Of a stretch of 64,000 nt of DNA, positions 10,676 through 27,358 are shown piece by piece. The position numbers were made by a program, and so were the translations under genes. The stretch comes from Hyunsoonleella aestuarii (GTDB lineage: Bacteria > Bacteroidota > Bacteroidia > Flavobacteriales > Flavobacteriaceae). Where the stretch lies: the NCBI RefSeq assembly GCF_006148925.1, contig NZ_VAWB01000001.1, positions 958,001 through 1,022,000 of the forward strand, written 5' to 3'. Numbering within the stretch: the first letter of the stretch is position 1; each line of letters opens with the position of its first letter. The notes under the pieces are model-generated. The model did not search any database and was not told the origin of the DNA. It worked only from the letters and a program-made list of their open reading frames with translations.

Positions 10676-10676
10676 G

Positions 10677-10750
10677 TGGAGAAGATCGGGCTCGAACCGA
10701 CGACCTCTTGACTGCCAGTCAAGCGCTCTAGCCAACTGAGCTACATCCCC
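10677..10750 (-). tRNA. tRNA-Ala (anticodon GGC)
   Basis: On minus the gene starts GGGGATGTAGCTCAG and folds as a cloverleaf. The D stem is GCTC/GAGC. The anticodon stem CTTGA/TCAAG has loop CTGGCAG, giving anticodon GGC. The T arm is GTCGG-TTCGAGC-CCGAT and the discriminator base is A. The acceptor has a G3-U70 wobble, the identity mark of alanine tRNAs, plus one T-T mismatch at the sixth pair. CCA is not encoded. Its 5' portion is partly repeated at 45816-45842, framing the cassette region. Confidence 0.93.
10730..10746. repeat. Left copy of the tRNA-derived direct repeat
   Basis: AGCCAACTGAGCTACAT within the tRNA-Ala gene is repeated exactly at 45822-45838, and looser similarity runs further on both sides. 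It lies in the D-arm/acceptor part of the tRNA and is a candidate attachment core for the whole region. Confidence 0.6.
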
Positions 10751-10911: not shown

Positions 10912-11307
10912 TTATGACCAAGGATTAAATGTTAAGTTTTCCATATAGTCTTGCTTTTGAACTATCAGCATTTTTTCAATACCATTATCATCTTTCACAG
11001 GGAGAAAACCATAATCATAGCAGAAATAATATGTTCCACTTTTAAAAGTGTAAATATGGGTGAATACATCGAAGCTATATCCAGATTTAAATAATATTTC
11101 TTTTTCCACTGTGGTCTTTCCACTTGGACTAAAATGCGCTAACAAAGTTCTGTTTCTTCTTAGCGTACTATTTGTTCTCTGAATAAATATCTCATGTAAA
11201 GGTCTGTTCTTATTATGATGAGTACTTCTACACTGAGCATCACAAAATTTTTTATCAGTTCTTCCTATAAGTTCTTTATTACAGGCTAAACAAAACTTCA
11301 TTTGCAT
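10912..11307 (-). CDS. Small zinc-ribbon protein divergent from the recombinase
   Basis: 131 residues beginning MQMKFCLACNKELIGRTDKKFCDAQCRSTHHNK. The pair CxxC and CxxxC in the first 26 residues makes a zinc ribbon of a type common in small flavobacterial proteins. The start may be ATG 11307 or ATG 11301. The rest is basic and then contains beta-like segments ending YDYGFLPVKDDNGIEKMLIVQKQDY. It is transcribed away from the recombinase, with a 34-bp palindrome between them, so it could bind DNA and regulate the recombinase or assist recombination. That is inference from position only; it may instead be an ordinary chromosomal gene. Confidence 0.7.
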   Translation of the reverse strand: MQMKFCLACNKELIGRTDKKFCDAQCRSTHHNKNRPLHEIFIQRTNSTLRRNRTLLAHFSPSGKTTVEKEILFKSGYSFDVFTHIYTFKSGTYYFCYDYGFLPVKDDNGIEKMLIVQKQDYMENLTFNPWS

Positions 11308-11317: not shown

Positions 11318-11351
11318 TTTAGACGTTTATATACGTATATAAACGTCTAAA
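11318..11351. promoter_or_regulatory. Perfect 34-bp palindrome upstream of the recombinase
   Basis: The half-site is TTTAGACGTTTATATAC (11318-11334), followed immediately by its exact reverse complement to 11351, with no loop. It lies between two divergent genes, 38 bases before the recombinase start. It could be an operator for a dimeric regulator, a cruciform or a recombinase binding site. It lacks a T tract on either side long enough for a convincing terminator. Confidence 0.75.
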
Positions 11352-11389: not shown

Positions 11390-12307
11390 ATGGGAACAAG
11401 ACTATTAATTACATCATCAATGAATACCATTGGTACTAAACCAGATTATCAAATGGCAATGGATTTATTGCTTCAAAAGTTAATCTTAAAGAATTACAGC
11501 CAGAACACTATTAAGACCTACGTGCACATGTTTAAAAAGTTTCTTGAACACATACACCCAATGCCTCTACATCAGGTCACCACAGCCCATATTATGCATT
11601 ATCATAAAGAATTAGTAACAAAGCATGGTGTATCCTCATCTTACCAGAATCAAAGCATAAACGCCATTAAATTTTACATAGAGAAAGTGTTGAATCTGCC
11701 TAAAATAACTTATGATTTCTGTAGACCTAGAAAAGCGAAGACTCTACCCAATGTATTATCTTTAAATGAGGTATCAAGGATATTAGGTGTTATTGGAAAC
11801 ATAAAGCATAAAACTATACTTTCAGTCATATATGGTTGCGGACTAAGAATATCGGAATGCATTAATTTGAAGGTGGAAGATATTGATTCTTCCAATATGC
11901 GTGTATGGGTGAGAAATGCCAAAGGGAAGAAAGATAGAATTACATTATTATCTCCTACTTTATTGGTGGAATTAAGAGCTTATTACAAACTTTACAAACC
12001 AAAACAATGGCTATTTGAGGGGAGCTATGGAAAACAATACAGCGTATCCAGTATTAGACAGGTGTTTAATCGTTCCAAGAAGAAAGCTGGAGTTAATGTA
12101 CCAGCTACTGTACATACGTTAAGACACTCCTTTGCTACACATTTATTAGATAATGGAACCAATTTAAGATATATTCAAAAACTGTTAGGACATAACAGCT
12201 CTAAGACTACTGAAATATACACTCATGTTAGCACAACTAATCTGATGAACATTGAGAGTCCTTTCGAAAAGATAGGAAAATTCGCTACATTTGGAAATAG
12301 GGAATAA
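11390..12307 (+). CDS. Tyrosine recombinase (cassette integrase, Xer-like)
   Basis: 305 residues. An N-terminal SAM-like DNA-binding domain (about 20-110) includes LKNYSQNTIKTYVHMFKKFL. The catalytic domain has Arg153 (GCGLRISE), Lys178 (NAKGKKDR), His242-x-x-Arg245 (HTLRHSFATHLL), His268 (LLGHNSSKTT) and the nucleophile Tyr277 (EIYTHVS), so all active-site residues are present. Only about 63 residues separate the Lys from the HxxR box, so the extra segment found between them in classical IntI integrases is missing. It is transcribed in the same direction as the cassettes, which start 28 bases after its stop. An alternative start is ATG 11420. It most likely cuts and joins the attC-like sites described here. 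Confidence 0.9.
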   Translation: MGTRLLITSSMNTIGTKPDYQMAMDLLLQKLILKNYSQNTIKTYVHMFKKFLEHIHPMPLHQVTTAHIMHYHKELVTKHGVSSSYQNQSINAIKFYIEKVLNLPKITYDFCRPRKAKTLPNVLSLNEVSRILGVIGNIKHKTILSVIYGCGLRISECINLKVEDIDSSNMRVWVRNAKGKKDRITLLSPTLLVELRAYYKLYKPKQWLFEGSYGKQYSVSSIRQVFNRSKKKAGVNVPATVHTLRHSFATHLLDNGTNLRYIQKLLGHNSSKTTEIYTHVSTTNLMNIESPFEKIGKFATFGNRE

Positions 12308-12340
12308 ACGCAATAAAATACGTTTATTGAATAGTTGTGC
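12303..12340 (+). promoter_or_regulatory. Candidate attI (primary insertion site) after the recombinase gene
   Basis: An inverted repeat AATAAACG / CGTTTATT (12303-12310 and 12321-12328) overlaps the end of the recombinase gene. The crossover point G|TTGTGC is at 12334/12335. Everything right of this point is cassette DNA, because the same sequence begins again at 19310 after an unrelated left flank. The non-cassette side is therefore 12334 and leftwards. Confidence 0.6.
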
Positions 12341-13178
12341 ACAAGCTTGACCGATTCGGAAAAAATGAAGAAAAGTATTATCATATCAACAATTGCGATT
12401 GTAGGACTTCTTTCCTGTAAACGAGCAAATAAGTCAACACCTGATTTAGTTGATACAACTAAACTGGAATCAACACATAGTGTCAAAAACCAAAAATTGG
12501 AAACCGTCAACTATACAAAGTTTATTGATACTGAATATGAATATGCTGAGACAGGTAAGAAATTGATAATACGGAATGGTTTACCAAAGGGAGGAATGAA
12601 ATATACTGACCCTAATGGAGAGAACTATAATTATCGTATTTTTTGGACTCAAATAATTAATGAAACAGATAATTCCTTTGAACTATCCATTGAGATTCCT
12701 TCCTCTTCATTCGAGCTTCAATCCTCACCAACAGACTATTTCAAAATATTTCTTCCAAAAGAGGAAATGAATATTGATAAAATGTCATTGTCAGATTATG
12801 GACTATCTGATTTGGAAGCTGTTTTGGATAGCATATTTCTAAAACAAGTTTCGTTACAAAAAACTATCAACACAAAGGAAACGAGCTTTTTTTATATTGT
12901 AGCTCTTTTTAGTGAAGGATATGAAGGAGTTGTACGAGCAGGCCTAAATTTAAGAGATGGTAAACTTTTTTACAGAGTTAATGATGTGGAAATTAGTAGC
13001 GGAAAAATTAATACCAAAAACTTAAAACTACAGAATTGAATAAGAGCCAATGCACAACAATGTATAACCGCAATTACGGCGGATTCGACCACATCCGAAT
13101 CCACTCGGAATTGCTAAAGTCTATACCAAACCGAAAATTAACGCATATTAACTCGTAACAGACAGTTATACTAGACCG
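12335..13178 (+). mobile_element. Cassette 1 (844 bp), identical to cassette 3
   Basis: Identity with 19310-20153 starts exactly at G|TTGTGC and stops at the next crossover point (five bases after it by chance sharing). Both copies have the same offset throughout and encode identical proteins. Being the first cassette after the candidate attI, it is probably the last one inserted. Confidence 0.88.
12365..13039 (+). CDS. Hypothetical lipoprotein (copy 1)
   Basis: 224 residues starting MKKSIIISTIAIVGLLSCKRANK: a short lipoprotein signal with the lipidated Cys at 18. The mature part is polar, with a Thr/Asp/Lys-rich start and FEIL-type beta strands; no known domain was recognised. TTG codons further upstream in frame lie on the cassette boundary and are unlikely starts. 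An identical gene is at 19340-20014. Function is unknown; an outer-membrane or periplasmic surface role is likely because of the lipobox. Confidence 0.8.
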   Translation: MKKSIIISTIAIVGLLSCKRANKSTPDLVDTTKLESTHSVKNQKLETVNYTKFIDTEYEYAETGKKLIIRNGLPKGGMKYTDPNGENYNYRIFWTQIINETDNSFELSIEIPSSSFELQSSPTDYFKIFLPKEEMNIDKMSLSDYGLSDLEAVLDSIFLKQVSLQKTINTKETSFFYIVALFSEGYEGVVRAGLNLRDGKLFYRVNDVEISSGKINTKNLKLQN

Positions 13179-13184
13179 TTGTAT
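13051..13184 (+). repeat. attC-like site closing cassette 1 (134 bp)
   Basis: Left arm TGCACAACAATGTATAAC, right arm GTTATACTAGACCGTTGT, crossover at 13178/13179. The left arm is the complement of the cassette start GTTGTGCA. Inner stem around GCAATTACGGCGGATTCG (type 1). Confidence 0.85.
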
Positions 13185-13305
13185 GCCATTGCGTAAAAAC
13201 CAACCGCACATTAAGCACATTTGGTTTTTGCCATCACATAATCCGACCCTAAAAAAACCAAAAGAGCTTAATCACCAAATCACTCTCTGAATAGAATAAA
13301 ATCAC

Positions 13306-13313
13306 TATATTTG
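13306..13313 (+). promoter_or_regulatory. -7 box of the restriction-modification operon
   Basis: TATATTTG fits the Bacteroidota TAnnTTTG consensus and lies eight bases before the ATG of the regulator gene. No good -33 TTG was seen. It suggests that the cassette carries its own promoter. Confidence 0.5.
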
Positions 13314-13321
13314 GACAAATA

Positions 13322-13654
13322 ATGTCTAGACAAAAAACGTCTGTTATGAGTGTGCAAAAAACTTTTGGAGAACATTTAAAATCTCTACGGGAAGATCAAG
13401 GTTCACCCTTGAGAAAGATTGCTGCAGAATTGGATATAGATCAATCAACCTTAAGTAAAATTGAACGAGGTGAGAGATTGGCAAATTGTTCTCAACTACC
13501 CAAAATTGCTGAAATTTTTAATGTCACTGAAAAATCTCTAAAACTGATTTTATTAAGTGATCAGGTGGCTTCTCAAATAATGGAAGAGAGTAATACTCAT
13601 GAAATACTTAAAGTCGCTGAAGAAAAAATCAAATACCACAGAGCACAAAAATAA
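13322..13654 (+). CDS. XRE-family HTH regulator (putative controller protein)
   Basis: 110 residues. A helix-turn-helix of the Cro/C1 type spans about 16-70: FGEHLKSLREDQGSPLRKIA, then AELDIDQSTLSKIERGER. This resembles the controller (C) proteins that delay restriction until methylation is complete, but with a longer C-terminal tail. It is the first gene of the cassette 2 operon and ends one base before the ATG of the next gene. A regulatory role for the operon is inferred from position and fold. Confidence 0.85.
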   Translation: MSRQKTSVMSVQKTFGEHLKSLREDQGSPLRKIAAELDIDQSTLSKIERGERLANCSQLPKIAEIFNVTEKSLKLILLSDQVASQIMEESNTHEILKVAEEKIKYHRAQK

Positions 13655-13655
13655 T

Positions 13656-14921
13656 ATGGCAAACATCAATTCCGAAATAAAAAAAGTGTTCTCTGATCAA
13701 GAGTTATCGAGCTTCACGAAAACATTTAAAACGGCTAAAAAGGACTTAAACAAATGGACCCCAAAGCAAAAAAAATCAACTGGTTCTGTTGATGTAATTG
13801 ATTTCTTTTCTGGCTGCGGAGGTATGTCTCTTGGGTTTGCAGCTATCGGAAAATCAAAACTGTTTAATCTTATTGGTGCTGTAGACATCAATCAAAAAGC
13901 ATTAGACTCTTATGAAACCAACTTTAAATGCAAAACATTAAATAAAGACATAAAAGATTTATGCAATGAAGATGGAGTAAAACTTATAAGAGAGGAATTT
14001 AATTTACCAAAAATAAAAACTCGACCTTTAGTAGTAATAGGCTGTGCCCCATGCCAAGGTTTTTCAGCTCACAGAAAGAAAAACTGGGACAAAGATGATG
14101 AAAGAAACACTCTAATAGGGGCTTTTACTGATACAGCAATAAAACTACATCCAGACTTTATAGTAATGGAGAATGTTCCTGAAATATTGGGTAAAAAATA
14201 TTGGGAGCATTATGATGAAGCAAGGAAAATCTTAGAAGAAAACGGTTATACCGTAAAGCAAACAATATATAATTCTGCTTCTTTTGGGGTTCCCCAAGCA
14301 AGATTCAGAGCGATAATAATTGCATCAAAAATGGAATTTGAACTTCCTATTCCGCTTCTTGAAAAAGAACAGTTCATTACTGTGCGAGATGCTATATATG
14401 ATTTGCCTAAAGTTGCTGCTGGTGAAGTATCATTGATCGATAAATTTCATAAAAGTGCAAAACACAAATCAAGTACTATAGAAACAATCACACAAGTACC
14501 AAAAGATGGAGGGAATAGACCATCAGGTGTTGGTCCAAAGTGTCTTGATAAAGTGAATGGGTTTTCTGATGTTTATGGTAGATTATATTGGGACAAACCC
14601 TCTATTACATTAACTCAATATTCTAGAAACCCAGCAAGTGGCAGATTCATTCATCCTGAACAGAATCGAGGATTAACAATTCGAGAAGCTGCAAGAATTC
14701 AGAGCTTTCCTGATTCATACGATTTTCAAGGCTCCCTAGATCATTGTTTTAAACAAATTGGAGAATCGGTTCCTCCTTTATTATCAGTTGCTATTGCTTC
14801 TCAAATAATAAGAGCCCTATCTAATGAAATTAAATCTAATGATTGCGGAGTTGAGTCAATTACATCACCTGTAAGTAGTTTATATACAAGTAAATCAATT
14901 TCAGAAACGATATCATTATGA
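13656..14921 (+). CDS. DNA (cytosine-5) methyltransferase 1
   Basis: 421 residues from ATG 13656, chosen because it follows the regulator stop by one base; a longer frame from 13599 would overlap that gene. Cytosine-C5 methyltransferase motifs are in order: motif I DFFSGCGGMSLGF (from residue 46 region), motif IV PCQGFS with catalytic Cys133, motif VI VMENVPEI, motif VIII FGVPQARFR, and the closing FKQIGESVPPLLSVAIASQI. It transfers a methyl group from SAM to cytosine in the recognition site. It overlaps the next gene by four bases. Confidence 0.94.
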   Translation: MANINSEIKKVFSDQELSSFTKTFKTAKKDLNKWTPKQKKSTGSVDVIDFFSGCGGMSLGFAAIGKSKLFNLIGAVDINQKALDSYETNFKCKTLNKDIKDLCNEDGVKLIREEFNLPKIKTRPLVVIGCAPCQGFSAHRKKNWDKDDERNTLIGAFTDTAIKLHPDFIVMENVPEILGKKYWEHYDEARKILEENGYTVKQTIYNSASFGVPQARFRAIIIASKMEFELPIPLLEKEQFITVRDAIYDLPKVAAGEVSLIDKFHKSAKHKSSTIETITQVPKDGGNRPSGVGPKCLDKVNGFSDVYGRLYWDKPSITLTQYSRNPASGRFIHPEQNRGLTIREAARIQSFPDSYDFQGSLDHCFKQIGESVPPLLSVAIASQIIRALSNEIKSNDCGVESITSPVSSLYTSKSISETISL

Positions 14922-15958
14922 GCTTTACATGTATAGACGGATTTTCTGGTGCTGGTGGTTTAAGCTTGGGGTTATCCAAAGCGGGTTTTGATCTCCTTTA
15001 TAGTTTTGATATTGACAGATGTTCTGTAGAAACTCAGTTGCTAAATAAGAAATATTTCAATCATAAAATTCAGGAACTAGATATAAGAGAATTTGATCCT
15101 ATTGAAACAATGAATGAATTAGGGCTAATAAAAGGTGAATTATCCTTATTTGCAGGAGGTCCTCCTTGTCAAGGCTTTTCAATTCAAAGAATTGGGTCGG
15201 ATCAAGATGACAGGAATAATTTCGTGTTTGTATTTATCGAGAAAATGATCGCGTTATCCCCTAAATTCTTTCTTTTAGAAAACGTACCTGGATTAAATGG
15301 AAAAAGAGGAAAAAAAATACTTGAAGATGCTTTAAATTATGCAGAACAGAATGGCTATCATATTCACAAAAACATTTTAAACGCTCAAGAATATGGAGTT
15401 CCACAAAGAAGAAAAAGAGTAATAATTGTTGGTGAACGAAAATCCAATTCACCATTAAAATTCTCATATCCAAAACCAAGCACAAAAAAAATAAGTGTTC
15501 GAGATACAATTGGTCATCTACCTGCCACTCCAAAAGACGGGAAAGAACATCCAGATATTAAGCATCATAGAAGCGATAAGTTATCTGACATCAATGTCAA
15601 AAGAATTAAATATGTAAAAGAAGGCCAGGGAATGGCTTTTTTACCTGACCATCTTCTGGCCGATTGCCATAAGGCAGGTGCAGAAAAAATTGGCCATCGT
15701 AATGTCTACGGCAGAATGAAATGGGATGATGTAGCACCAACAATAACAGCTCGTTTCGATAGTTTCACAAGAGGTATGTTTGGGCACCCAGAGCAGAATA
15801 GAACTATATCTTTAAGAGAAGGAGCTCTCCTCCAAACCTTCCCTAAAGACTTTGAATTTGTTGGAAATAAAGTGGATATAGCTCGACAAATTGGTAATGC
15901 TGTACCTGTGAATTTAGCGGTTGCAGTTGGAAAAGAATTAATAAAGGCACTAAAATGA
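14918..15958 (+). CDS. DNA (cytosine-5) methyltransferase 2
   Basis: 346 residues. Motif I CIDGFSGAGGLSLGLS is at the N-terminus, motif IV PPCQGFS carries catalytic Cys84, followed by LLENVPGL, YGVPQRRKRVIIVG and the C-terminal RQIGNAVPVNLAVAVGKELI. It overlaps its neighbours by four bases on both sides (ATGA), so translation is coupled. Two separate cytosine methyltransferases in one operon usually mean an asymmetric target, one enzyme per strand. Confidence 0.94.
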   Translation: MSFTCIDGFSGAGGLSLGLSKAGFDLLYSFDIDRCSVETQLLNKKYFNHKIQELDIREFDPIETMNELGLIKGELSLFAGGPPCQGFSIQRIGSDQDDRNNFVFVFIEKMIALSPKFFLLENVPGLNGKRGKKILEDALNYAEQNGYHIHKNILNAQEYGVPQRRKRVIIVGERKSNSPLKFSYPKPSTKKISVRDTIGHLPATPKDGKEHPDIKHHRSDKLSDINVKRIKYVKEGQGMAFLPDHLLADCHKAGAEKIGHRNVYGRMKWDDVAPTITARFDSFTRGMFGHPEQNRTISLREGALLQTFPKDFEFVGNKVDIARQIGNAVPVNLAVAVGKELIKALK

Positions 15959-18900
15959 ATTTTAGTCAAACCCTAACTAATTATTTATCTGAACTTCATC
16001 AGGAAGTATTAGCAAGTCAATCTGGAGAAACTACAGCAGAACTATCATTCAGGACAAGTTTAGATAATTTTTTTAAAAATACAGCTAGTGCAATAGATTC
16101 AAAAATAGTAACGATTCCTGAGCCCAAAAACCAAAATAAACTTGGACGACCAGATTGGAGATTTCATAATGAAGATTCTATGGGCGTATATGGATACGTT
16201 GAAGCCAAAGGGATTGATAGTCAGAATCCTATAAATAAGGAAGCTTATAGGAATCAGGTAGAAAAATATCTAACACTCGGGAATCCAGTCCTATTAACTG
16301 ATGGAATAGACTTTATTCTTTTCAAACCAAATGGTGAAGAGGTAAATTATTCAGCATGTCAAAAACCAATTGATTGGAATAACCTGATTCCAAATACTGA
16401 ATTAGAAACACTTTTCTTAACTTTTTTCGGGCAAATTGGGCATCGTATAATTTCTGAAAACCAACTTGTAACTGAGGTTGCTAAAAGAGCAAGACTTTTA
16501 ACCTCCGAGATACAAGAATTTCTAAATTTAGAAGATGACGAAACAGAAAATCAAACGGAACTTAACACTGTACTCCTATTAAGAGAACTAAAAGATACAG
16601 CTTCATCAAATCATGACAGAACTTTAGGTGATGAATTAAACTTTTCAAGTTTTATTTCTCAAGTATTAACTTTTGGTTTACTGTATGCACATAGGATAAT
16701 CAACTCTGATTTAGAGACGCCTAAAATTAAATATGATAGAATTCATGAATTTTGGTTTTCTGTATTAGATGAAAAATACACTAATAATTTAATACCTTTT
16801 AAAACCCTAGTGAAAGGGCTAGAATCAGAACTTAATTCTGACTTAAGTAGGCTCGGGTTATGGTATGACGATTTAAGAAGATTATTAGCTCATATTCAAC
16901 TTTCCGATAGTCAAGTGGTGGCTCCAGATTTTCATGAACTTTATGAAATATTTTTATCGAAGTATGACCCAGTGACTCGCTTTGATTACGGGGCTTTCTA
17001 TACTCCTCGAGTTTTAGCATTTTATACAGTAGAATTTGCCAAGAGATTAATACAAACATCAATCCCTAATGTTGACCTCAATACTACTGGGAATAAAATA
17101 ATCGATCCTTGTTGTGGGACAGGAACATTCATTGAAGCAATTTTAAATGTTATAACTCCGAACGATAAAGTCGAATTAATTGGGTTTGAAATCCTTCCAG
17201 CACCTTACGCTTTGGCTCAATATAGAATGAGTATTATCAATGATGCTTATCCTGAAAACGTTCAAATAAAACTTACAAATACACTAAGTGATTCCCTTTT
17301 TGAATTAAATACTGACCCTGATTCAGAGGATACTAATGATTTGAGCAAAATGCTTGTAAAAGAACAGGAAGAAGCTTACCATTTAGCTACGCCTCCATTA
17401 ACATTAATTATTGGTAACCCTCCTTCATCAGATTCAATTTTCCAAATTCAAAATGAGGGAGAAATAATTAAAGCTCTCATAAATGATTTTAGGCCTGATG
17501 CTAATAATAGAACTTCACGGCAGAACACACAAAAGCAATTATCAAATGAATTTATAAAATTCCTAAGGTGGACTGCAGATAGAGCATTAAAAAGCACTCC
17601 ATCTATTTTTGTTTTAATTCTTCCTTCAAGTTTTTCGAAACATCCAACGTATAAATTTGCAAGAAAATTCCTTATTGAAAAGTTCAATGAAATTTGGGTT
17701 TTGGACTTTGACAGCGACCTTAGAACGGGAACTGAAGATATTAATCTATTTGACACTCAACAAGGTCGTTTAATTCTTGCTGCAACATTTAAGGAGGCTA
17801 GTTCTACCCCCGCTTTGATTAATTACAATTCAATTACTCATTTATCTAAATCTGACAAAGTTGATTTTTTCAATCAGACAGAAATTCGATTAGAAGATTG
17901 GGAAAGAATAGACTTAGACCAAGATGACTATTCATTAAAACCTAAAATGCAATTTAATAAGGAAGCCTATAATTTGTTCTGGCCAATTACAGATTCAAAT
18001 GATACAGGTATCTTTCTTAGACATTGTTCAGGTTTAAAACTGGCACCAACACATCTATTGGTTCATGCTTCATCAGGTCAATTAAAGAGACGATCAAAAT
18101 TCATTTCTCGGGCTGAAAATGATTTTGAAAATATTAAATCAAGATGGTATAGTGGCCAACGTAAAATCCCAAATCAATCTAAAATAACTGAAGGCATTAG
18201 ATCAAAACTTGGATTAGCTGCAAATTCGAATAACATCGAAAATTACTCATATAGACCGTTCCTAGAAACAAGCGTAATTCTAAATGATGAGTTATTAACT
18301 GAACTACAACAATTAGGTGGCGGTGGAACTAGGGTTCGTCCTGAAGTTCGAGCAGCTTACTCAGATGACAGAGTTTTTGGATTTATAGTTTCCCCTGCTC
18401 CTGAAGACCTTGGCGATAATCTTCACAAATTTGCATCCTTCTGTTGGAATCTACCAGACAATGATTTAAGCAAACGAGGTAGTGCACGAGTATTCTGTAA
18501 TTTTTTCCCAGAATATAAACGAAAGGGAGAATGGAATAGTGCGAACCAAAATAACATAAACCCAGTTCTCGTTAATATGTTATCTACTGAATTTGATTTG
18601 CCTCAAGATGAAATTATTACACTTTTAACATTTTACTCATATGCCCTATTGAGTTCTAATCTATATCTGAGTTCTTTTGAAGGAGCCTTGTTTGGTGTAG
18701 CAGGTAACTGGCCCAAAATTCCTATAACAAAGGATAAGTCTCTTTTTACTAGTGTCTCAGAATTTGGAAGTACTCTTGCAAATATTGAAAAATCAAGCTA
18801 CACAATTCCTGATATCACAATTGAGGAAAACGAAGTTTTATATCACAAATATAGTTTTGAGGAAAACACAATATGTTTGAAAAATGAGTCTGGGGGGATA

Positions 18901-19140
18901 GTAAAACAATATACAGATATTGCTTCTGACGTTATTGATTTTGAAATTTCTGGCTATAGTGTTTTAAAAGAATGGTTAAAAATGCATTCATTCCAATATT
19001 ATAGAAGGTCCCTTCAGGTCGACAAATTATTAGAGCTTGAAACCCTGATATCCAAAATCTCCTTATATATTGAAAAAGTTGTAGAATTAGATTTAGAAGT
19101 TGAACAAGTATTATCCAATGAACTATTTAGCCCTAACTAA
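15955..19140 (+). CDS. Type IIG-like restriction enzyme with PD-(D/E)XK nuclease and gamma-type methylase domain
   Basis: 1061 residues. A PD-(D/E)XK-like nuclease lies near the N-terminus: RPDW with Asp67, then Glu83-x-Lys85 in YVEAKG. A helical linker leads to the N6-adenine methylase fold: FYTPRVLAFYTVEFAKRL, motif I DPCCGTGTF (384-392), and motif IV at 488-491. Motif IV reads N-P-P-S instead of the usual NPP(Y/F/W), which may abolish methylation. The C-terminal third probably holds target recognition. No helicase motifs were seen. Last gene of the cassette 2 operon; the two cytosine methylases probably protect the host DNA. Confidence 0.82.
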   Translation: MNFSQTLTNYLSELHQEVLASQSGETTAELSFRTSLDNFFKNTASAIDSKIVTIPEPKNQNKLGRPDWRFHNEDSMGVYGYVEAKGIDSQNPINKEAYRNQVEKYLTLGNPVLLTDGIDFILFKPNGEEVNYSACQKPIDWNNLIPNTELETLFLTFFGQIGHRIISENQLVTEVAKRARLLTSEIQEFLNLEDDETENQTELNTVLLLRELKDTASSNHDRTLGDELNFSSFISQVLTFGLLYAHRIINSDLETPKIKYDRIHEFWFSVLDEKYTNNLIPFKTLVKGLESELNSDLSRLGLWYDDLRRLLAHIQLSDSQVVAPDFHELYEIFLSKYDPVTRFDYGAFYTPRVLAFYTVEFAKRLIQTSIPNVDLNTTGNKIIDPCCGTGTFIEAILNVITPNDKVELIGFEILPAPYALAQYRMSIINDAYPENVQIKLTNTLSDSLFELNTDPDSEDTNDLSKMLVKEQEEAYHLATPPLTLIIGNPPSSDSIFQIQNEGEIIKALINDFRPDANNRTSRQNTQKQLSNEFIKFLRWTADRALKSTPSIFVLILPSSFSKHPTYKFARKFLIEKFNEIWVLDFDSDLRTGTEDINLFDTQQGRLILAATFKEASSTPALINYNSITHLSKSDKVDFFNQTEIRLEDWERIDLDQDDYSLKPKMQFNKEAYNLFWPITDSNDTGIFLRHCSGLKLAPTHLLVHASSGQLKRRSKFISRAENDFENIKSRWYSGQRKIPNQSKITEGIRSKLGLAANSNNIENYSYRPFLETSVILNDELLTELQQLGGGGTRVRPEVRAAYSDDRVFGFIVSPAPEDLGDNLHKFASFCWNLPDNDLSKRGSARVFCNFFPEYKRKGEWNSANQNNINPVLVNMLSTEFDLPQDEIITLLTFYSYALLSSNLYLSSFEGALFGVAGNWPKIPITKDKSLFTSVSEFGSTLANIEKSSYTIPDITIEENEVLYHKYSFEENTICLKNESGGIVKQYTDIASDVIDFEISGYSVLKEWLKMHSFQYYRRSLQVDKLLELETLISKISLYIEKVVELDLEVEQVLSNELFSPN

Positions 19141-19243
19141 AACATACACATTGCCAAGTCGCTCAAAAGCCAACCACTCGAGCCAAAACTTGTCAAAGAG
19201 TATGTTTTTCCAACGCTGAAAACAAAATGAATAAAATAAAAAC

Positions 19244-19316
19244 GGCATACAACAAGGTATAAAATGCATAGCCACCCTGCGGGATGGCTACGACATCTTA
19301 TACAGACCGTTGTGCA
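19244..19316 (+). repeat. attC-like site closing cassette 2 (short form)
   Basis: GGCATACAACAAGGTATAA opens and TTATACAGACCGTTGTGC closes it; the inner hairpin is TAGCCACCC-tgc-GGGATGGCTA. The outer arm exactly complements the start of cassette 2. Crossover at 19309/19310. Confidence 0.85.
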
Positions 19317-20153
19317 CAAGCTTGACCGATTCGGAAAAAATGAAGAAAAGTATTATCATATCAACAATTGCGATTGTAGGACTTCTTTCCTGTAAACGAG
19401 CAAATAAGTCAACACCTGATTTAGTTGATACAACTAAACTGGAATCAACACATAGTGTCAAAAACCAAAAATTGGAAACCGTCAACTATACAAAGTTTAT
19501 TGATACTGAATATGAATATGCTGAGACAGGTAAGAAATTGATAATACGGAATGGTTTACCAAAGGGAGGAATGAAATATACTGACCCTAATGGAGAGAAC
19601 TATAATTATCGTATTTTTTGGACTCAAATAATTAATGAAACAGATAATTCCTTTGAACTATCCATTGAGATTCCTTCCTCTTCATTCGAGCTTCAATCCT
19701 CACCAACAGACTATTTCAAAATATTTCTTCCAAAAGAGGAAATGAATATTGATAAAATGTCATTGTCAGATTATGGACTATCTGATTTGGAAGCTGTTTT
19801 GGATAGCATATTTCTAAAACAAGTTTCGTTACAAAAAACTATCAACACAAAGGAAACGAGCTTTTTTTATATTGTAGCTCTTTTTAGTGAAGGATATGAA
19901 GGAGTTGTACGAGCAGGCCTAAATTTAAGAGATGGTAAACTTTTTTACAGAGTTAATGATGTGGAAATTAGTAGCGGAAAAATTAATACCAAAAACTTAA
20001 AACTACAGAATTGAATAAGAGCCAATGCACAACAATGTATAACCGCAATTACGGCGGATTCGACCACATCCGAATCCACTCGGAATTGCTAAAGTCTATA
20101 CCAAACCGAAAATTAACGCATATTAACTCGTAACAGACAGTTATACTAGACCG
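19310..20153 (+). mobile_element. Cassette 3 (844 bp), second copy of cassette 1
   Basis: Matches 12335-13178 at a constant offset of 6975 bases, including its attC-like site. The left flank (end of cassette 2) and right flank (cassette 4) are unrelated to those of copy 1. Confidence 0.88.
19340..20014 (+). CDS. Hypothetical lipoprotein (copy 2)
   Basis: The same 224-residue protein as the gene at 12365, with signal MKKSIIISTIAIVGLLSC. The complete protein identity indicates very recent duplication. No domain recognised. Confidence 0.8.
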   Translation: MKKSIIISTIAIVGLLSCKRANKSTPDLVDTTKLESTHSVKNQKLETVNYTKFIDTEYEYAETGKKLIIRNGLPKGGMKYTDPNGENYNYRIFWTQIINETDNSFELSIEIPSSSFELQSSPTDYFKIFLPKEEMNIDKMSLSDYGLSDLEAVLDSIFLKQVSLQKTINTKETSFFYIVALFSEGYEGVVRAGLNLRDGKLFYRVNDVEISSGKINTKNLKLQN

Positions 20154-20159
20154 TTGTGG
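20026..20159 (+). repeat. attC-like site closing cassette 3 (134 bp, type 1)
   Basis: Same sequence as the site at 13051-13184. Crossover at 20153/20154. Confidence 0.85.
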
Positions 20160-20185
20160 TTAATGTCCCAAAACCGAGAAAGTGA

Positions 20186-20980
20186 ATGAACAAAACGATA
20201 TTTGAGATTACCAAAATGGATTGTCCTTCCGAGGAAAATCTAATCCGAATGAAATTGGACGGAATCTCAAATATTGCGAATTTGGACTTTGACATTCCGA
20301 ACCGAAAACTGACTGTTTTTCACAGCGGACAAATCGACCAAATTGAAAAGTCCGTTCTAGAACTGAATTTAGGCGGAAGGAAAATCTCGACCGAACAAAC
20401 CGACCAAACAGAATTTATTGAAAACGCAAACCAGAAAAAACTACTTTGGACTGTACTTGGAATTAACTTTGCATTTTTCCTCATTGAAATGACTACTGGA
20501 CTCATTTCAAAATCAATGGGATTGGTTGCTGACAGTTTGGATATGCTTGCCGACAGTTTCGTTTATGGAATCAGTCTTTTTGCGGTTGGCGCAACTCTGA
20601 CAAGAAAAAAACGGATTGCTAAACTTGCTGGATATTTTCAAATAACACTTGCTATTATTGGATTTGTGGAAGTCTTAAGGAGATTTTTCGGAGACGAGAA
20701 ACTTCCCGATTTTTCAACAATGATTATCGTTTCGATTTTTGCACTTATTGCAAACGGAATTTGCCTTTACATTTTACAACAGTCAAAAAGCAAAGAAGAG
20801 GCTCATATGAAAGCGAGCATGATTTTCACTTCAAATGATGTGATTATCAATTTGGGAGTAATAATCGCAGGAATTTTGGTAAATTGGTTAAGTTCAAACA
20901 AACCTGATTTGATTATCGGAACAATCGTTTTTGCTTTGGTAATTCAAGGAGCATTTAGAATTTTAAAATTGAGTAAATAA
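20186..20980 (+). CDS. Cation transporter, CDF-like, with N-terminal metal-binding-like domain
   Basis: 264 residues. About 65 N-terminal residues resemble a heavy-metal-associated fold: FEITKMDCPSEENLIRMKL, keeping only one Cys of the usual CxxC. Six hydrophobic helices follow with SMGLVADSLDMLADSFVYG, the Asp-bearing metal site of cation diffusion facilitators, and MIFTSNDVIINLGVIIAG in helix 5. It probably exports a divalent metal such as Zn or Co. Sole gene of cassette 4; its leader is 32 bases. Confidence 0.8.
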   Translation: MNKTIFEITKMDCPSEENLIRMKLDGISNIANLDFDIPNRKLTVFHSGQIDQIEKSVLELNLGGRKISTEQTDQTEFIENANQKKLLWTVLGINFAFFLIEMTTGLISKSMGLVADSLDMLADSFVYGISLFAVGATLTRKKRIAKLAGYFQITLAIIGFVEVLRRFFGDEKLPDFSTMIIVSIFALIANGICLYILQQSKSKEEAHMKASMIFTSNDVIINLGVIIAGILVNWLSSNKPDLIIGTIVFALVIQGAFRILKLSK

Positions 20981-20988
20981 ATAAACAC

Positions 20989-21122
20989 TAACCACAACAA
21001 TGGCTATAATTCATTGCTTCGGATTTTCTTTCGAAAATCCTCGCACTTTTGCTATCTTGGTTTCTTAATAGGAAAATCCTTGCGGATTTTCACGCAACTA
21101 CTCATAGCCGAGACCGTTGGCA
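20989..21122 (+). repeat. attC-like site closing cassette 4 (134 bp, type 2)
   Basis: TAACCACAACAATGGCTAT opens (complement of the cassette start GTTGTGGTTA) and CATAGCCGAGACCGTTGG closes. Inner repeats GAAAATCC / GGATTTTC. Crossover 21116/21117. Confidence 0.85.
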
Positions 21123-21221
21123 ATAATTAATTATATCTATAAATTTATCAAGCATAACTTAAATATAAACATTTATATTACACTTATATATAATACTTAA
21201 TATTACATAAATATAATAAAT

Positions 21222-22154
21222 ATGGATAGTTTACTAAATCAAGAAGTGTTATATAAATGGAGCACTCCATTTTTTGCAGTTATTATCATATTTGAAATTC
21301 TTGTAAGCTACTATTACCAGAAAAAAAATTATACATTTAAAGATACATTTACAAACGTATATTTTGCTGCAATAAATATTGGACTTGATTTAATAATGAA
21401 AGTTATTTCATTATTTGTTTTAGGTTTTTTCTATCAACATCATTTATTAACGTGGGAAAATCAAACATTAATTTACTGGGTTTTTGTTTTTGTTTTTCAA
21501 GATTTTTTATATTACATCCAACATTATGTTGATCATCATTCTCGTTTCTTTTGGGCGGTACATGTAACTCATCATAATTCTAAATACTATAATTTAACTA
21601 CAGGGTTTCGCTCTTCTGTTTTTCAGCCTCTTTATCGATATTTATTTTTTATTCCATTGGCAATAATGGGAGTTCCTTCATTGCATATTATGTTTGCTTA
21701 TGCATTAGGTCAAATTTATGGAGTGTTCTGTCATACTAAATTTATTAAATATAATTTTGGTTTTTTTGGAAAAATATTTGTTACACCATCCCATCATAGA
21801 GTTCACCATGCATCAAATATTATGTATTTAGACAAAAACTTAGGTACGGTTTTAATCATATGGGACAAGATATTTGGCACATTTCAAGCTGAGAAAACGA
21901 CTGAAGATTATGAAGAAATAAAATTTGGATTAACAGAAAACCAAAAAAGCACGGGTTTATTTAATATTATTTTTCACGAATGGAATTCAATTTTAAAAGA
22001 TTTTTTTATAAATAAAAGACATCTGAGTTTACAAATTCGCTTAAAGTATGTCTTTTATCGTCCAGGGTGGAGTCATGACGGAAGCACAGAAACAAGTAAA
22101 GAATTGCAAGAAAAGTTAATCGATAAAAAAAGAACTATTGCCAACAATGTATAA
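21222..22154 (+). CDS. Sterol desaturase / fatty acid hydroxylase family protein
   Basis: 310 residues of an integral-membrane di-iron enzyme. The histidine clusters are visible: HYVDHHSRFFWAVHVTHHN (about 104-122) and TPSHHRVHHASN (about 190). Four or so hydrophobic helices surround them. Such enzymes hydroxylate or desaturate lipids in the membrane. Sole gene of cassette 5. Its last codons (TIANNV and the stop) lie inside the left arm of the attC-like site, so the site is partly coding. Confidence 0.88.
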   Translation: MDSLLNQEVLYKWSTPFFAVIIIFEILVSYYYQKKNYTFKDTFTNVYFAAINIGLDLIMKVISLFVLGFFYQHHLLTWENQTLIYWVFVFVFQDFLYYIQHYVDHHSRFFWAVHVTHHNSKYYNLTTGFRSSVFQPLYRYLFFIPLAIMGVPSLHIMFAYALGQIYGVFCHTKFIKYNFGFFGKIFVTPSHHRVHHASNIMYLDKNLGTVLIIWDKIFGTFQAEKTTEDYEEIKFGLTENQKSTGLFNIIFHEWNSILKDFFINKRHLSLQIRLKYVFYRPGWSHDGSTETSKELQEKLIDKKRTIANNV

Positions 22155-22271
22155 AAATAATTGCTAGATTGGTGCTTAAACAAGGGGTGTTGCAGTTTTG
22201 TTACGTCTGATTTTCCTTCGGAAAATCCTTGCACACAAAACCGCAACTATTCTTATACAAACACGTTGGCA
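22137..22271 (+). repeat. attC-like site closing cassette 5 (type 4)
   Basis: ATTGCCAACAATGTATAAAA opens and TTCTTATACAAACACGTTGGC closes. The outer arm complements the cassette start GTTGGCAAT. Crossover 22265/22266. It overlaps the end of the gene at 21222-22154. Confidence 0.85.
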
Positions 22272-22300
22272 AACATTAAACTAACCAAAACCATTCAATT

Positions 22301-23497
22301 ATGAAAAAATTACTATTTGCGCTAATTGCCATCTCAATATTAGCTGGATGCAAAACTGAAAAAGAAGGAAGCAATGTTGTAATTAATGAATTACCACTGA
22401 AATCTTACTTTCAAAAAAGTAACCTTCCTGCTGCGCTTATGGGTTGTAGTAACAGAGAAGGAAAAATAAGCTGGTATGCGTTTGGGCCATCAATTTGGGG
22501 AGGGAAAGACACAATAAATGAAAACAACATCTTTAGGATTTTTTCAATGACAAAGGCCATATCCTCTGTTGCCGCATTGCAACTTGTTGAAAAAGGATTA
22601 ATTGGACTAGATGACCCTTTAGACGAACTTATGCCTGAAATGACATCTATTCCTATTATGACCAAAAATGGAGAACTTGTTAAAGCTAATAAATCAATAA
22701 CTTTGAGAAACTTATTAACCCACACTGCTGGATTTGGATATGATTTCTTGGACGAACGCCTTCAAAAATTTGATAAAACAGGATGGAATTATGCTGACCT
22801 GCCCAGATTATTCGAAAGTGGTGAAAAATGGGAATACGGAACGAATTTAGATTGGGTTGGAAAGGTTATTGAAAAAATAAGTGGTGAAGACCTTGAAACT
22901 TACTTAAGAAAAAATATTACTGGGCCTTTAAAAATGAATAGCACTTGGTTTAATGTTCCTGAAAATTTGAAAGAAAATATTGTTTCTTGGGGAATTCGAG
23001 ACTCAGTTGGTTTTAAAGAGTATTCTCGTATTCCAACTAAACCAGTTGCTGAATATAACGCAGGTGGCGGTTTGTTTGGTTCACCAAAGGATTATTTAAC
23101 ATTTCTTGAATGCATTAAGAATAATGGCAAATATTATGGTGGTCAAATTTTAAAACCCGAAATCGTTGAGTTAATGTTCAAAAATCAACTGCCCAATGGA
23201 TTAACGTTAAGTTATAATGTAATTGAAGGTGGTATGGTTGATATATTGGGTGGATTCCCCGATAATTCTGATGTTTATTCGTTATCATGGGCAATTGAAA
23301 ATAATGAGGACGAGTTGATCAGAACCAAAGGTTCTGCCTATTGGGCTGGAATGGCTAATTCTTATTACACATTGGATAATGACAAAGGGATAGCCATAGT
23401 ATATTTTACACAGCTTTTTCCTTTCAATGATAAAGTATCTTTTGATTTTTATCGTCTATTCGAAAAAGAAGTTTACAATAGTCTTAACACTAAATAA
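22301..23497 (+). CDS. Serine hydrolase, class C beta-lactamase fold, lipoprotein
   Basis: 398 residues. The signal MKKLLFALIAISILAGC gives a lipoprotein. The active-site SxxK is SMTK in RIFSMTKAISSVAALQL (about 80). A YxN-type box is YGTN at about 184. Related proteins include esterases, D-aminopeptidases and penicillin-binding-like enzymes, so antibiotic resistance should not be assumed. Sole gene of cassette 6, 36 bases after its crossover point. Confidence 0.85.
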   Translation: MKKLLFALIAISILAGCKTEKEGSNVVINELPLKSYFQKSNLPAALMGCSNREGKISWYAFGPSIWGGKDTINENNIFRIFSMTKAISSVAALQLVEKGLIGLDDPLDELMPEMTSIPIMTKNGELVKANKSITLRNLLTHTAGFGYDFLDERLQKFDKTGWNYADLPRLFESGEKWEYGTNLDWVGKVIEKISGEDLETYLRKNITGPLKMNSTWFNVPENLKENIVSWGIRDSVGFKEYSRIPTKPVAEYNAGGGLFGSPKDYLTFLECIKNNGKYYGGQILKPEIVELMFKNQLPNGLTLSYNVIEGGMVDILGGFPDNSDVYSLSWAIENNEDELIRTKGSAYWAGMANSYYTLDNDKGIAIVYFTQLFPFNDKVSFDFYRLFEKEVYNSLNTK

Positions 23498-23500
23498 CGA

Positions 23501-23634
23501 TTTGCCAACAATATGTATAATTCATTGCTAGTTATAGCCTACTTACGAAAGTCCTCGTGGACTTTCTATCTGTGATTTATTTGCTAACTTTAGTGTTTAA
23601 ACACGCAACGAAATCATACACAAAACCGTTGTAA
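23501..23634 (+). repeat. attC-like site closing cassette 6 (134 bp, type 3)
   Basis: TTTGCCAACAATATGTATAA opens (complement of GTTGGCAAA) and AAATCATACACAAAACCGTTG closes except for the first base. Crossover 23628/23629. Confidence 0.83.
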
Positions 23635-23667
23635 TTAATTAAAGCACAGAATATATAAACTGTTAAT

Positions 23668-24096
23668 TTGAATTTATCTGATTACGTAAAAAGAAGAAAT
23701 GGTGTGCCTTTGGGTAACAGTCATTCACTTCGTAATATGTTGAATCGTTCTCTGGGAGCGGGAAAGTTTTCAATATTTTGGCAATACTGGAATCCAATCT
23801 GGGGTTTCTATCTAGGGAAATATATATTCAAACCCCTTAAACTCATCTTACCCCAAGCAATATCCCTGTTAATGACTTTTATTGTTTGTGGATTTATCCA
23901 TGACCTTGTTATCATGTTATTAAAATGGAAATTTATCCTACTTCTAACCCCATGGTTTTTATTTATGGGTCTTGGTGTAATTTTAAGTGACTATGCGAAA
24001 ATTGATTACTCAAAATTTCCATGGATTGTTAGAGCTGGTATAAACATAGCTATCATATTAGGTTGCTTAATTCTAGCTTACCAAATAAGAATCTAA
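23668..24096 (+). CDS. Small membrane protein resembling an MBOAT fragment
   Basis: 142 residues from TTG 23668; ATG 23737 is an alternative start. The stretch FSIFWQYWNPIWGFYLGKYI followed by KPLKLILPQAISLLMTFIVCGFIHDL resembles the FWRRWNIS...yiPL...tF..sGlWHG core of membrane-bound O-acyltransferases, with His in the same relative place. A full MBOAT is about three times longer, so this is either a small relative or a remnant kept as a cassette. Several hydrophobic helices. Sole gene of cassette 7. Confidence 0.6.
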   Translation: MNLSDYVKRRNGVPLGNSHSLRNMLNRSLGAGKFSIFWQYWNPIWGFYLGKYIFKPLKLILPQAISLLMTFIVCGFIHDLVIMLLKWKFILLLTPWFLFMGLGVILSDYAKIDYSKFPWIVRAGINIAIILGCLILAYQIRI

Positions 24097-24127
24097 AACA
24101 AAGGAGAATTGCTAAAATGAATAAACT

Positions 24128-24187
24128 AATTACAACAACCTATAAAATCAATGTAAAACACTAATTTTATATATAACCGTTACCTGT
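24128..24187 (+). repeat. attC-like site closing cassette 7 (short, 60 bp)
   Basis: AATTACAACAACCTATAAAAT opens (less its first base it matches the cassette start GTTGTAATT) and ATTTTATATATAACCGTTACC closes. Crossover 24179/24180. Confidence 0.75.
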
Positions 24188-24331
24188 AATTCTGAGAATG
24201 ATATTAAATATTTAAAACTATATCATAATTTCTACAAATAATTATTAAGAATAATCTATTATTTCAATTTAAGTTACAATTTTCAGACTTTGTCGTCATC
24301 ATTGTATAGATGTTTAAATAAATATACTTTT

Positions 24332-24850
24332 ATGAGAATCAAATTAATATTTTTTAGCTTTTTCCTTTCTTTCTTTTTTATAAATGCTCAAACAACTAAA
24401 GATTCTAACGTGGAATTGGAAAAAGTAATTGATGTTTTTAGAGTATCAATAATAGAGCGTAATGATTTTGAAAAATTTTCTAATTTATTTTTGCATGATT
24501 CTATTACTTGGGCAGCAATTATAACAGGAGAGACTAAAAAAAGAGTGCTTCAACAAAAACCTGATTTCACATTTCAAACTAGTAATTACAAGACTTTCTT
24601 TGAAGAATTGAAAGATGGAAGTGAAGAAAAATTTTATAACGTTAAAATAGATGTGCTAAATGAATTTGCAACTATATCATTTGACTACAGTTTCAATGTT
24701 AATTCAAAAATTCAAAATTGGGGAACTGAATACTGGTCTCTAATTCTAATGAATAATACATGGAAAATCACAAGTGTAACTTGGTCTCAGAATATGCAAA
24801 ATTTAGAAGCCTGCCCTTTTGAACCTAAGGATCTCTTCAAAATGAATTAA
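24332..24850 (+). CDS. NTF2-like (DUF4440/SnoaL-type) secreted protein
   Basis: 172 residues from ATG 24332, chosen because it begins a clean signal peptide MRIKLIFFSFFLSFFFINAQ; an upstream in-frame start at 24290 would spoil it. The mature part reads DVFRVSIIERNDFEKFSNLF, then WGTEYWSLILMNNTWKITSVTWS, the helix and terminal strand pattern of small NTF2-like folds. The ligand or reaction is unknown. Sole gene of cassette 8, preceded by an unusually long 150-base leader in which nothing was recognised. Confidence 0.65.
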   Translation: MRIKLIFFSFFLSFFFINAQTTKDSNVELEKVIDVFRVSIIERNDFEKFSNLFLHDSITWAAIITGETKKRVLQQKPDFTFQTSNYKTFFEELKDGSEEKFYNVKIDVLNEFATISFDYSFNVNSKIQNWGTEYWSLILMNNTWKITSVTWSQNMQNLEACPFEPKDLFKMN

Positions 24851-24873
24851 TGAAAATAATAGTAATGCAAACT

Positions 24874-25022
24874 ACAGGTAACGACGTCTATAATTAATTG
24901 CTTGGGTATTGCCTACTTACGAAAATCCTTGCGTCCGGATAGCTATCGGGATTCTATTCGGTTTGTATTTGCTAAATTAGTTGCTGAAACACGCAACGAC
25001 ATCATACACAAACACGTTATAC
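24874..25022 (+). repeat. attC-like site closing cassette 8 (149 bp, type 3 with insertion)
   Basis: ACAGGTAACGACGTCTATAATT opens less its last bases, complementary to the start GTTACCTGT; ACATCATACACAAACACGTT closes. A palindrome-like CCGGATAGCTATCGGG at 24935-24950 explains the extra length. Crossover 25016/25017. Confidence 0.82.
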
Positions 25023-25037
25023 GCAATTACAAAAAAT

Positions 25038-26564
25038 ATGAAAATCAAAATGAACATCCTTTCCATAATTGGGTTATTATTATTCTCTACTTCATTCGCC
25101 CAACAAATACAATTAGATTCACTTGATTTACAAATTGACCAAGTAATAAAAGACTTCGAAATTCCCGGGCTTTCGATAGGTATCATTAGGAATGATTCTG
25201 TAATATTTTCCAAAGGGTATGGAAAATTGGAAATACTAAAAGAAAGAAAAGTTGATGAAAACACTCTTTTTGGAATAGGTTCGATTTCTAAATCTTTTAC
25301 TGCCCTAACGTTGGGAATTTTAGTTGATGAAGGAAAAATTAATTGGGATGATAAAGTTAAAGAGTATCTACCCTATTTTGAATTGTATGCCCCTTACGTA
25401 ACAGATAATTTTACAATTAGAGATTTACTTACACATAGAAGTGGTCTTAAAGATGTCAGTGGTGGAACACTTTGGTATCACTCAGATTATTCTAGGGAAG
25501 AAATAATAAAACGACTCAAATATTTGGAGCCTGAGTCAAGCTATAGAGAAAAGCCAGCATATCAAAATGTTATGTACGTTATTGCTTCTGAGATAGTTAA
25601 AGTAGTTTCTGGAATATCCTGGGATGATTTCCTAAGAGAACGTGTGTTTGACAAACTTAAAATGAACAACAGCACATCTTTCTCTAAGGAACGAGAAGCT
25701 AACATAAATCTCGCGCAGCCACATATTTGGAATGAAGAATATAAAAAAGTTGCAATAATTCAAGAAAAAGGAGACAATCTTGCACCTGGTGGATTCATCT
25801 ATTCCTCTGCAACTGAAATGTCGAATTATATGAAATTGTTATTGAATAATGGAGTAATTGATAATGACACCGTGGTTAGTCCGAAAATTATCAAGGAAAT
25901 TTTTAAGCCACAAATTATTTATGCAGATGGAGGAATGTTCAAAAATGAATTTTCTTCCTATGGGTTCGGTTGGTGGCTCACGCCAGTTAATGGGCACAAG
26001 ATAATAGAACATAGTGGTGGAATTGACGGGATGTCCGCTCAGTTGGTAATGATAAAGGACATGAATGTGGGGTTTATCATACTTACAAACACCTCGAAAG
26101 AACCATCAACTTTTTTCTTGAGAGCATTGTTATTGAGTGAGCTTCTTAATGAACCTCTCTCTGACAATTTTTACTCTAGAGTAAAAGAATGGCGGGCAAA
26201 TAACATTAAAGAAAAAAGAGCATCTTCAAAAAATATTTCAAGATCTATAAATACTAACCCTTCATTGGCAATCAAAGACTATACTGGAAAATATACCGAT
26301 AAGATGTATGGTGAAATACTTATAAAGAAAATAGGTGAAAATGAATTAGAAATCGCGTTTTCACATACTAAAGTATTCAGAGGGAAATTGAAACATTGGC
26401 ATTTTGACACCTTTAAAATCGATTGGTATGACATTCGCGTTCCTGATGGGTTTTTAACTTTCAATTTTAGTGCTAAAAGAGAAATATTAGGTTTCTCATT
26501 CGATCAAGAAAATTTACTGGATGTTGATTTTGGAGAACTGAATGTTTTGAAAAATAAAAACTGA
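25038..26564 (+). CDS. Secreted serine hydrolase, beta-lactamase fold, with C-terminal extension
   Basis: 508 residues from ATG 25038; the signal peptide is MKIKMNILSIIGLLLFSTSFAQ. SxxK is SISK in FGIGSISKSFTALTLG (about 78), YxN is YQN in KPAYQNVMYVIASE, and the third box is HSGG in KIIEHSGGIDGMSAQ. A C-terminal beta-rich domain of about 100 residues starts near DYTGKYTDKMYGEI, as in DUF3471-type extensions. Probably a periplasmic peptidase or esterase. Sole gene of cassette 9; the cassette leader is only 21 bases. Confidence 0.88.
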   Translation: MKIKMNILSIIGLLLFSTSFAQQIQLDSLDLQIDQVIKDFEIPGLSIGIIRNDSVIFSKGYGKLEILKERKVDENTLFGIGSISKSFTALTLGILVDEGKINWDDKVKEYLPYFELYAPYVTDNFTIRDLLTHRSGLKDVSGGTLWYHSDYSREEIIKRLKYLEPESSYREKPAYQNVMYVIASEIVKVVSGISWDDFLRERVFDKLKMNNSTSFSKEREANINLAQPHIWNEEYKKVAIIQEKGDNLAPGGFIYSSATEMSNYMKLLLNNGVIDNDTVVSPKIIKEIFKPQIIYADGGMFKNEFSSYGFGWWLTPVNGHKIIEHSGGIDGMSAQLVMIKDMNVGFIILTNTSKEPSTFFLRALLLSELLNEPLSDNFYSRVKEWRANNIKEKRASSKNISRSINTNPSLAIKDYTGKYTDKMYGEILIKKIGENELEIAFSHTKVFRGKLKHWHFDTFKIDWYDIRVPDGFLTFNFSAKREILGFSFDQENLLDVDFGELNVLKNKN

Positions 26565-26696: not shown

Positions 26697-26710
26697 ATAA
26701 TTTATGAAAT

Positions 26711-27259: not shown

Positions 27260-27268
27260 ATTAAAACT

Positions 27269-27321: not shown

Positions 27322-27358
27322 TTCATTAAATAAAACACTAACCAAAATAAATACAGTC

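Follow-up and report, generated by a model that had tools for sequence, protein, structure and literature searches.

A probable copy-and-paste cassette duplicate in an integron-like array of Hyunsoonleella aestuarii whose recombinase lacks the IntI-specific insertion

Passages of two papers on integron integrases (IntI) describe their insertion I2 as accommodating extrahelical bases and as necessary for cassette capture (PMC4792948, PMC7790495), and the latter adds that I2 confers single-strand recombination, occurs in no other protein and has a causal role that is not directly demonstrable, because its deletion abolishes IntI1 function (PMC7790495). In class 1 integrons, copy-and-paste of cassettes into the first place of the array is known from the pertinent sections of PMC8024014, where an experiment placed the copy ahead of the original and duplicates are counted in 5% of integrons having two or more cassettes. 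For Bacteroidetes proper, the corresponding part of the IntegronFinder 2 paper reports nothing but In0 earlier and a single Salinibacter integron (PMC9024848), and a search of the open-licence PubMed Central literature, with most subscription papers and all preprints outside its scope, found no paper describing integrons without I2 in Flavobacteriaceae. Here we analyze a stretch of 64,000 nucleotides (the window; G000:C1:958001-1022000) from the H. aestuarii genome (3.14 Mb in 8 contigs), in which a tyrosine recombinase gene and an attachment site, attI, are followed by about 21 attC-like cassette-end sites, and in which cassettes 1 and 3 of the resulting integron-like array are identical copies. 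The elements central to the argument are as follows.

11390-12307, + strand: tyrosine recombinase of 305 amino acids, without the IntI-specific insertion (PF00589 at 1.4e-38, TIGR02249, alignment, structure model).
12304-12334, + strand: attI, an inverted repeat ATAAACG-N10-CGTTTAT (12304-12327) followed by the crossover G|TT at 12334/12335.
12335-13178, + strand: cassette 1, copy 1 of the duplicate (exact repeat, crossover ends).
13052-13185, + strand: attC of cassette 1, its last bases being part of cassette 2.
13179-19309, + strand: cassette 2, 6131 bp.
19246-19315, + strand: attC of cassette 2.
19310-20153, + strand: cassette 3, the identical copy of cassette 1.
20027-20160, + strand: attC of cassette 3.

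The preliminary description of this stretch had claimed two identical 844-bp copies with differing flanks, whose identity starts at G|TT and ends at the next crossover and one of which directly follows attI, and base-by-base comparison bears out each of these points: 12335-13178 and 19310-20153 agree in 844/844 bases with 0 mismatches, both ends lie at G|TT, where they coincide with cassette boundaries of the array, and attI adjoins copy 1 at 12335. The longest exact block is slightly larger, at 849 bases (12334-13182 and 19309-20157), since the crossover bases, a G in front and TTGT behind, are common to both copies. Outside this block the left flanks, attI for one copy and the cassette 2 end for the other, are unrelated, as are the right flanks, which belong to cassettes 2 and 4. 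In the 21-kb stretch searched the duplicate is the only long repeat, the others spanning 31-78 nt, and an exact repeat of 849 bases goes far beyond what chance would give. A whole-genome search recovered exactly two full copies of cassette 1, plus weaker matches to its attC alone, and plasmid records yielded no match for it. Its single open reading frame (ORF; likely ATG 12365 to 13039) matches no Pfam/NCBIfam family and may, from its sequence, encode a lipoprotein-like product. The candidate identity of the duplicate as an insertion sequence or transposon was rejected, as this sole ORF matches no family and the stretch yielded no inverted repeat.

We consider it likely that this is a chromosomal integron-like array whose recombinase joins attI to folded bottom-strand attC, and that cassettes 1 and 3 arose by copy-and-paste. 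The recombinase would join attI, at its G|TT, with the folded bottom strand of attC on circular cassettes, and one cassette strand would be excised and inserted at attI with the original left in its place, giving the two identical cassettes. Such a scheme supposes that the neighboring recombinase itself performs the reaction, that it can act on single strands without I2, the strand being marked perhaps by a longer R'-L' spacer, and that the copying took place within the array. The duplicate itself is an already known kind of event, and the A-B-A order of the window, with the copy first, corresponds by analogy to the known copy-and-paste outcome.

Comparable duplicates occur in relatives. The comparison covers 41 loci, namely the window and 40 stretches drawn from the 121/299 Flavobacteriaceae genomes with a related recombinase at 1e-60, chosen as the closest relatives in mostly single-contig or long-contig genomes and thus not a random sample. 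Full-length within-genome duplicates amount to 15 pairs among 255 units, 8 of them 100% identical, and fall in 6/41 loci, the window and five other arrays; attI-proximal cassettes have internal duplicates also in loci L052 (100%) and L075 (about 97%). These 15 pairs were pre-cut at crossovers and so cannot show boundary precision, which comes instead from an uncut comparison, where identity ends at the crossover without copied flanks in the window, L052 and L056. Since the duplicate-bearing L056 (genome G236) and L075 (G256) come from single-contig genomes, such duplicates are not merely draft artifacts, and their presence in 6/41 loci, some of them single-contig, makes copy-and-paste the best reading. 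What the preliminary description had called a recent, recombinase-made duplicate is supported as regards the recombinase, by the G|TT ends, the A-B-A order and the parallels in five other arrays; its "recent" is not supported, as gene conversion could also keep the copies identical.

The rival that survives best is that the same cassette was captured twice, independently, from outside. Sequence identity cannot separate outside capture from internal copying, but 0 full-length cassettes are common between genomes among the 255 units, so that an identical donor seems to be less common outside the array than inside it, and the attI-proximal cassettes of L052 and L075 have internal duplicates; we regard two captures as unlikely. 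On the same count, a shared outside cassette pool was rejected. Less probable still is an assembly artifact, in which cassette 2 and the second copy would sit on a circle, separate or in the minority, and the chromosome would run from attI through cassette 1 straight into cassette 4: the repeat exceeds a short read, the short-read graph of a duplicate looks like that of a chromosome plus a 7-kb circle, and the genome is a draft of 8 contigs with only one 16S match, whereas exact cassette duplicates also occur in single-contig genomes (e.g., L056 and L075) and the array lies unbroken inside a 2.1-Mb contig, in a window that contains no N. A different recombinase of the cell, of XerC/D type or an IntI in trans, might move the cassettes and leave the neighbor incidental, and a passage of PMC7790495 has host Xer proteins able to use phage hairpin sites; we give this little credence, as arrays in relatives begin beside this recombinase type and no IntI exceeds the profile cut-off in the window genome or in any of the 299 Flavobacteriaceae genomes (a profile miss that does not alone show absence, but the same model does score above the cut-off in 105/395 genomes drawn across the phylum). 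Segmental duplication through homologous or illegitimate recombination, independent of the cassette recombinase, is presumably common in general and is highly improbable here, with both ends exactly at G|TT and no flank copied, in agreement with the uncut comparison for the window, L052 and L056.

The cassette ends in the array are coupled as a circular form would leave them. A circular intermediate requires the 5' arm of attC (R'') to be complementary to the first bases of its own cassette and not to those of the next unit. The window's 21 attC-like sites, all in one orientation, were placed manually, from 13052 to 42601; 20/21 units are informative, and the own start is matched over 4 variable bases in 16/20 and the next unit's in 1/20, as circular intermediates predict. 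Across the 41 loci, with units having more than 2500 bases between sites excluded, 206 units were tested and 183 were informative, the own start matching in 141/183 and the next in 8/183. Shuffled pairing over 1000 rounds gave a mean of 1.61 matches of 4 and a maximum of 1.86, compared to an observed 3.44.

Arrays of this kind recur beside related recombinases. With an attC pattern tuned on the window and matches counted at a score of 8 or more, the 41 loci hold 265 matches downstream on the recombinase strand (13 of them the window's own) versus 11 elsewhere (4 upstream on the same strand, 3 downstream and 4 upstream on the opposite strand), and at least two downstream sites are found in 30/41 loci. 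In a further 80 loci from a collection of named species, many short of downstream DNA, 27 matches lie downstream on the same strand and 12 elsewhere, with at least two sites in an uncultured Aquimarina, Winogradskyella ursingii, Seonamhaeicola aphaedonensis, a Rufibacter, Pontibacter oryzae and Flavobacteriaceae bacterium S0862. Within the window genome, lone attC-like sites also stand behind single genes far from the array (L010 at C1:1778360 and L011 at C3:368539).

The attI site is likewise recognizable in relatives. The recombinase gene of the window ends 27 bases upstream of the crossover G, and in 24/32 attC-bearing loci a G|TT matching the first cassette's R'' in 7/7 bases lies 26-125 bases past the recombinase stop, preceded in about half of these 24 by a near-perfect 22-28 bp inverted repeat that stops a few bases short of the G. 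The window's own attI site is present in L046, L047, L048 and L089.

The folds of the attC sites suggest which strand is used, and their geometry departs from that of IntI arrays. Among 259 distinct attC sites the bottom-strand fold is more stable in 236, the top in 21 and the two are equal in 2, while 286 control segments favor the bottom strand in 125 and the top in 154; in the window the bottom strand is better in 19/21 sites, and seven bottom strands have fold z-scores of -3.8 to -7.6. Use of attC as a single strand is thus indicated indirectly, from the folds. For hairpin geometry we required a 7-bp L stem, did not demand an L-box sequence, and excluded L048 and L049: ungapped L stems number 130 on the array strand versus 16 on the opposite strand, and a one-base bulge in L'' occurs 38 versus 44 times. 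The counted canonical control consists of 16 stretches next to true IntI within this phylum rather than class 1 plasmids, in which the first attC pattern found nothing and canonical sites were then read by eye; in this control ungapped stems number 10 versus 6, L'' bulges 65 versus 9 and L' bulges 8 versus 6. In the arrays of the present system the R'-L' spacer exceeds the R''-L'' spacer by 1 or 2 in 188/225 spacer readings. By these counts the attC sites of this system lack the L'' extrahelical base, which is present in true IntI arrays from the phylum.

The recombinase lacks the counterpart of that base. Against the IntI profile TIGR02249 it scores 207.3 bits, under the cut-off of 265, in a match split in two pieces, and all 10 relatives scanned give a two-piece match as well, broken at profile position 176-181. 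Of the columns in an alignment of 167 recombinases, 42 are present in at least 70% of 21 IntI and absent (at most 5%) in 36 array recombinases, and the solved IntI structure 2a3v shows the same gap. We therefore read the window protein as not an IntI, with the IntI-specific I2 insertion absent from its sequence. Against the XerA/Xer model NF040815 it reaches 215.2 bits, below a cut-off of 220 that two of the 10 relatives scanned (L020, L043) pass. The predicted structure (pLDDT 80.5) aligns with IntI 2a3v over 259 residues (Z 22.7, root-mean-square deviation (rmsd) 3.4) and with XerA 5hxy over 251 residues (Z 22.8, rmsd 14.2), and this fold ranking was not used to decide between XerA and IntI. 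In a tree that excludes loci L016-L044 (same or parallel picks), and for which 7/162 recombinases under 230 amino acids were dropped, IntI forms a clean clade (21/21, support 1.0) whose position among the short recombinases has supports of 0.71 and 0.37, too low to decide between gain and loss of I2. As a separate observation, the recombinases of L020, L025, L043 and L044 measure about 380 amino acids, with about 100 extra N-terminal residues in which no Pfam family exceeds its cut-off in these four, and most relatives' recombinase frames are similarly long.

Several observations weigh against an integron-like array built by this recombinase. Own-start coupling fails in 4/20 window cassettes and in 42/183 units overall; attI was not recognized in 8/32 attC-bearing loci; 10/41 recombinase loci have no downstream attC match in the stretch searched, one of them (L048) because its contig soon ends; a 1-nt bulge in L', rather than L'', is in some excess on the array strand (60 versus 26 opposite); and in a draft assembly whose 16S matches in a single place, repeats may be collapsed elsewhere. 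On balance we still regard the platform, from its sequence features, as an integron-like system that has neither the IntI helix nor the base read by that helix, common in Flavobacteriaceae and distinct from a canonical IntI integron. We lean, with less assurance, toward a broader view, in which Bacteroidia harbor a widespread second kind of integron whose I2-less recombinases, having never had I2 or having lost it, capture cassettes via single-stranded attC hairpins lacking the L'' base; strand choice would then depend on the R'-L' spacer, longer by 1-2 nt, together with G-T pairs formed only in the bottom strand. If so, I2 would be no precondition for cassette capture, and these systems would offer a living model of a step before or beside I2. 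Because I2 and the L'' base are missing together, the link between them becomes testable in a natural set of I2-less recombinases adjoining arrays whose cassette ends, attI and bottom-strand bias look integron-made. Surveys that demand IntI would miss such systems in a large family, where a related recombinase is found in 121/299 genomes and IntI over the cut-off in 0.

Upstream, the recombinase and attI belong to a larger module that adjoins a tRNA gene:

10676-10750, - strand: tRNA-Ala (ARAGORN), left edge of a segment missing in the congener.
10912-11307, - strand: ORF of 131 amino acids (tblastn 66-82% identity in L046, L047, L048 and L089).
11322-11347, no strand: perfect palindrome of 26 bp, lying between the 131-aa ORF and the recombinase gene, whose arms CGTTTAT/ATAAACG recur inverted in attI.

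The module of 131-aa ORF, palindrome, recombinase and attI has counterparts, 72-79% identical in DNA, in two platforms of genome G159, in G082 and in a Cellulophaga. The palindrome, conserved in G159, may serve as an operator for the recombinase or for the 131-aa protein, which has paired cysteines and is kept beside the recombinase in four related platforms. A general claim that copies of the attI arms lie upstream of the recombinase was dropped: in the window and its close relatives they can be made out by eye, but an 8-10-mer search matched only 4/24 loci. The two G159 platforms (L046, L047), on one chromosome, share 99.2% identity over the 1563 bp that lead to attI, and their cassettes differ; past attI they share only 125-162 bp stretches, of attC-site length, at 85-90%. 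The strain comparison proposed in the preliminary description was run between two species of the genus, and the whole 35-kb segment proved missing in the congener: where the window has the segment 10676-45849, from tRNA-Ala to a universal-stress gene, G034 has about 2.6 kb between glpD and that gene, with glpD, a tRNA and the universal-stress gene all within about 5 kb. The segment was accordingly either gained in the window genome or lost in the congener.

Cassette 2, between the two copies, is a restriction-modification unit: besides a type IIG-like restriction-methyltransferase it encodes two cytosine-5 methyltransferases and a control-type helix-turn-helix protein. Its loss by homologous recombination between the copies, as envisaged in the preliminary description, would be hypothetical and may be costly. 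Beyond the second copy the array continues as follows.

20154-35132, + strand: cassettes 4-19, each closed by an attC-like site.
35133-42596, + strand: distal part, two long multigene units with attC-like sites at 39280-39411 and 42476-42601; the array end is uncertain.

Cassettes 4-19 encode a CDF transporter, a member of the fatty-acid hydroxylase family, beta-lactamase-fold hydrolases, esterases and proteins of no known kind. Three of them carry PF00144 beta-lactamase-fold hydrolases (22301-23497, 24981-26564 and 34017-35066), for which a resistance function is not implied. In the distal part, an ORF at 38895-39197 (- strand) resembles the start of a recombinase N-terminal domain and has no Pfam match.

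Set against known systems, the window resembles IntI integrons, both class 1 and sedentary chromosomal, in the position of attI next to the recombinase gene, the uniform orientation of the cassettes, the R''-L''-L'-R' order of attC, the G|TT crossover, coupled cassette ends, a stabler bottom-strand hairpin and copy-and-paste duplicates. It differs from them in a recombinase without I2 (42 columns; 207 bits versus a cut-off of 265) that reads toward the array, in attC sites with a longer R'-L' spacer and no L'' extrahelical base, and in an attI that is an inverted repeat. The chromosomal integrons of Treponema, as described in part of PMC3607928, share the orientation of the recombinase with the cassettes, toward attI; they were published as IntI integrons, and the likeness concerns orientation. 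Smyshlyaev 2021 describes an integron-like subgroup of simple tyrosine recombinases, in passages that name no arrays or attC for the insertion-less members. With the dimer recombinases XerA/XerC/XerD the window protein shares its fold (5hxy), the lack of I2 and its NF040815 score (215 bits), but it adjoins a cassette array, and the genome has two further Xer-type genes. Also comparable is XerC-mediated integration of the IMEX/CTXphi type, where, according to passages of PMC7790495 and PMC4792948, a hairpin is recombined by an enzyme without I2; unlike those elements, the window system has its own recombinase, its own attI and long cassette arrays.

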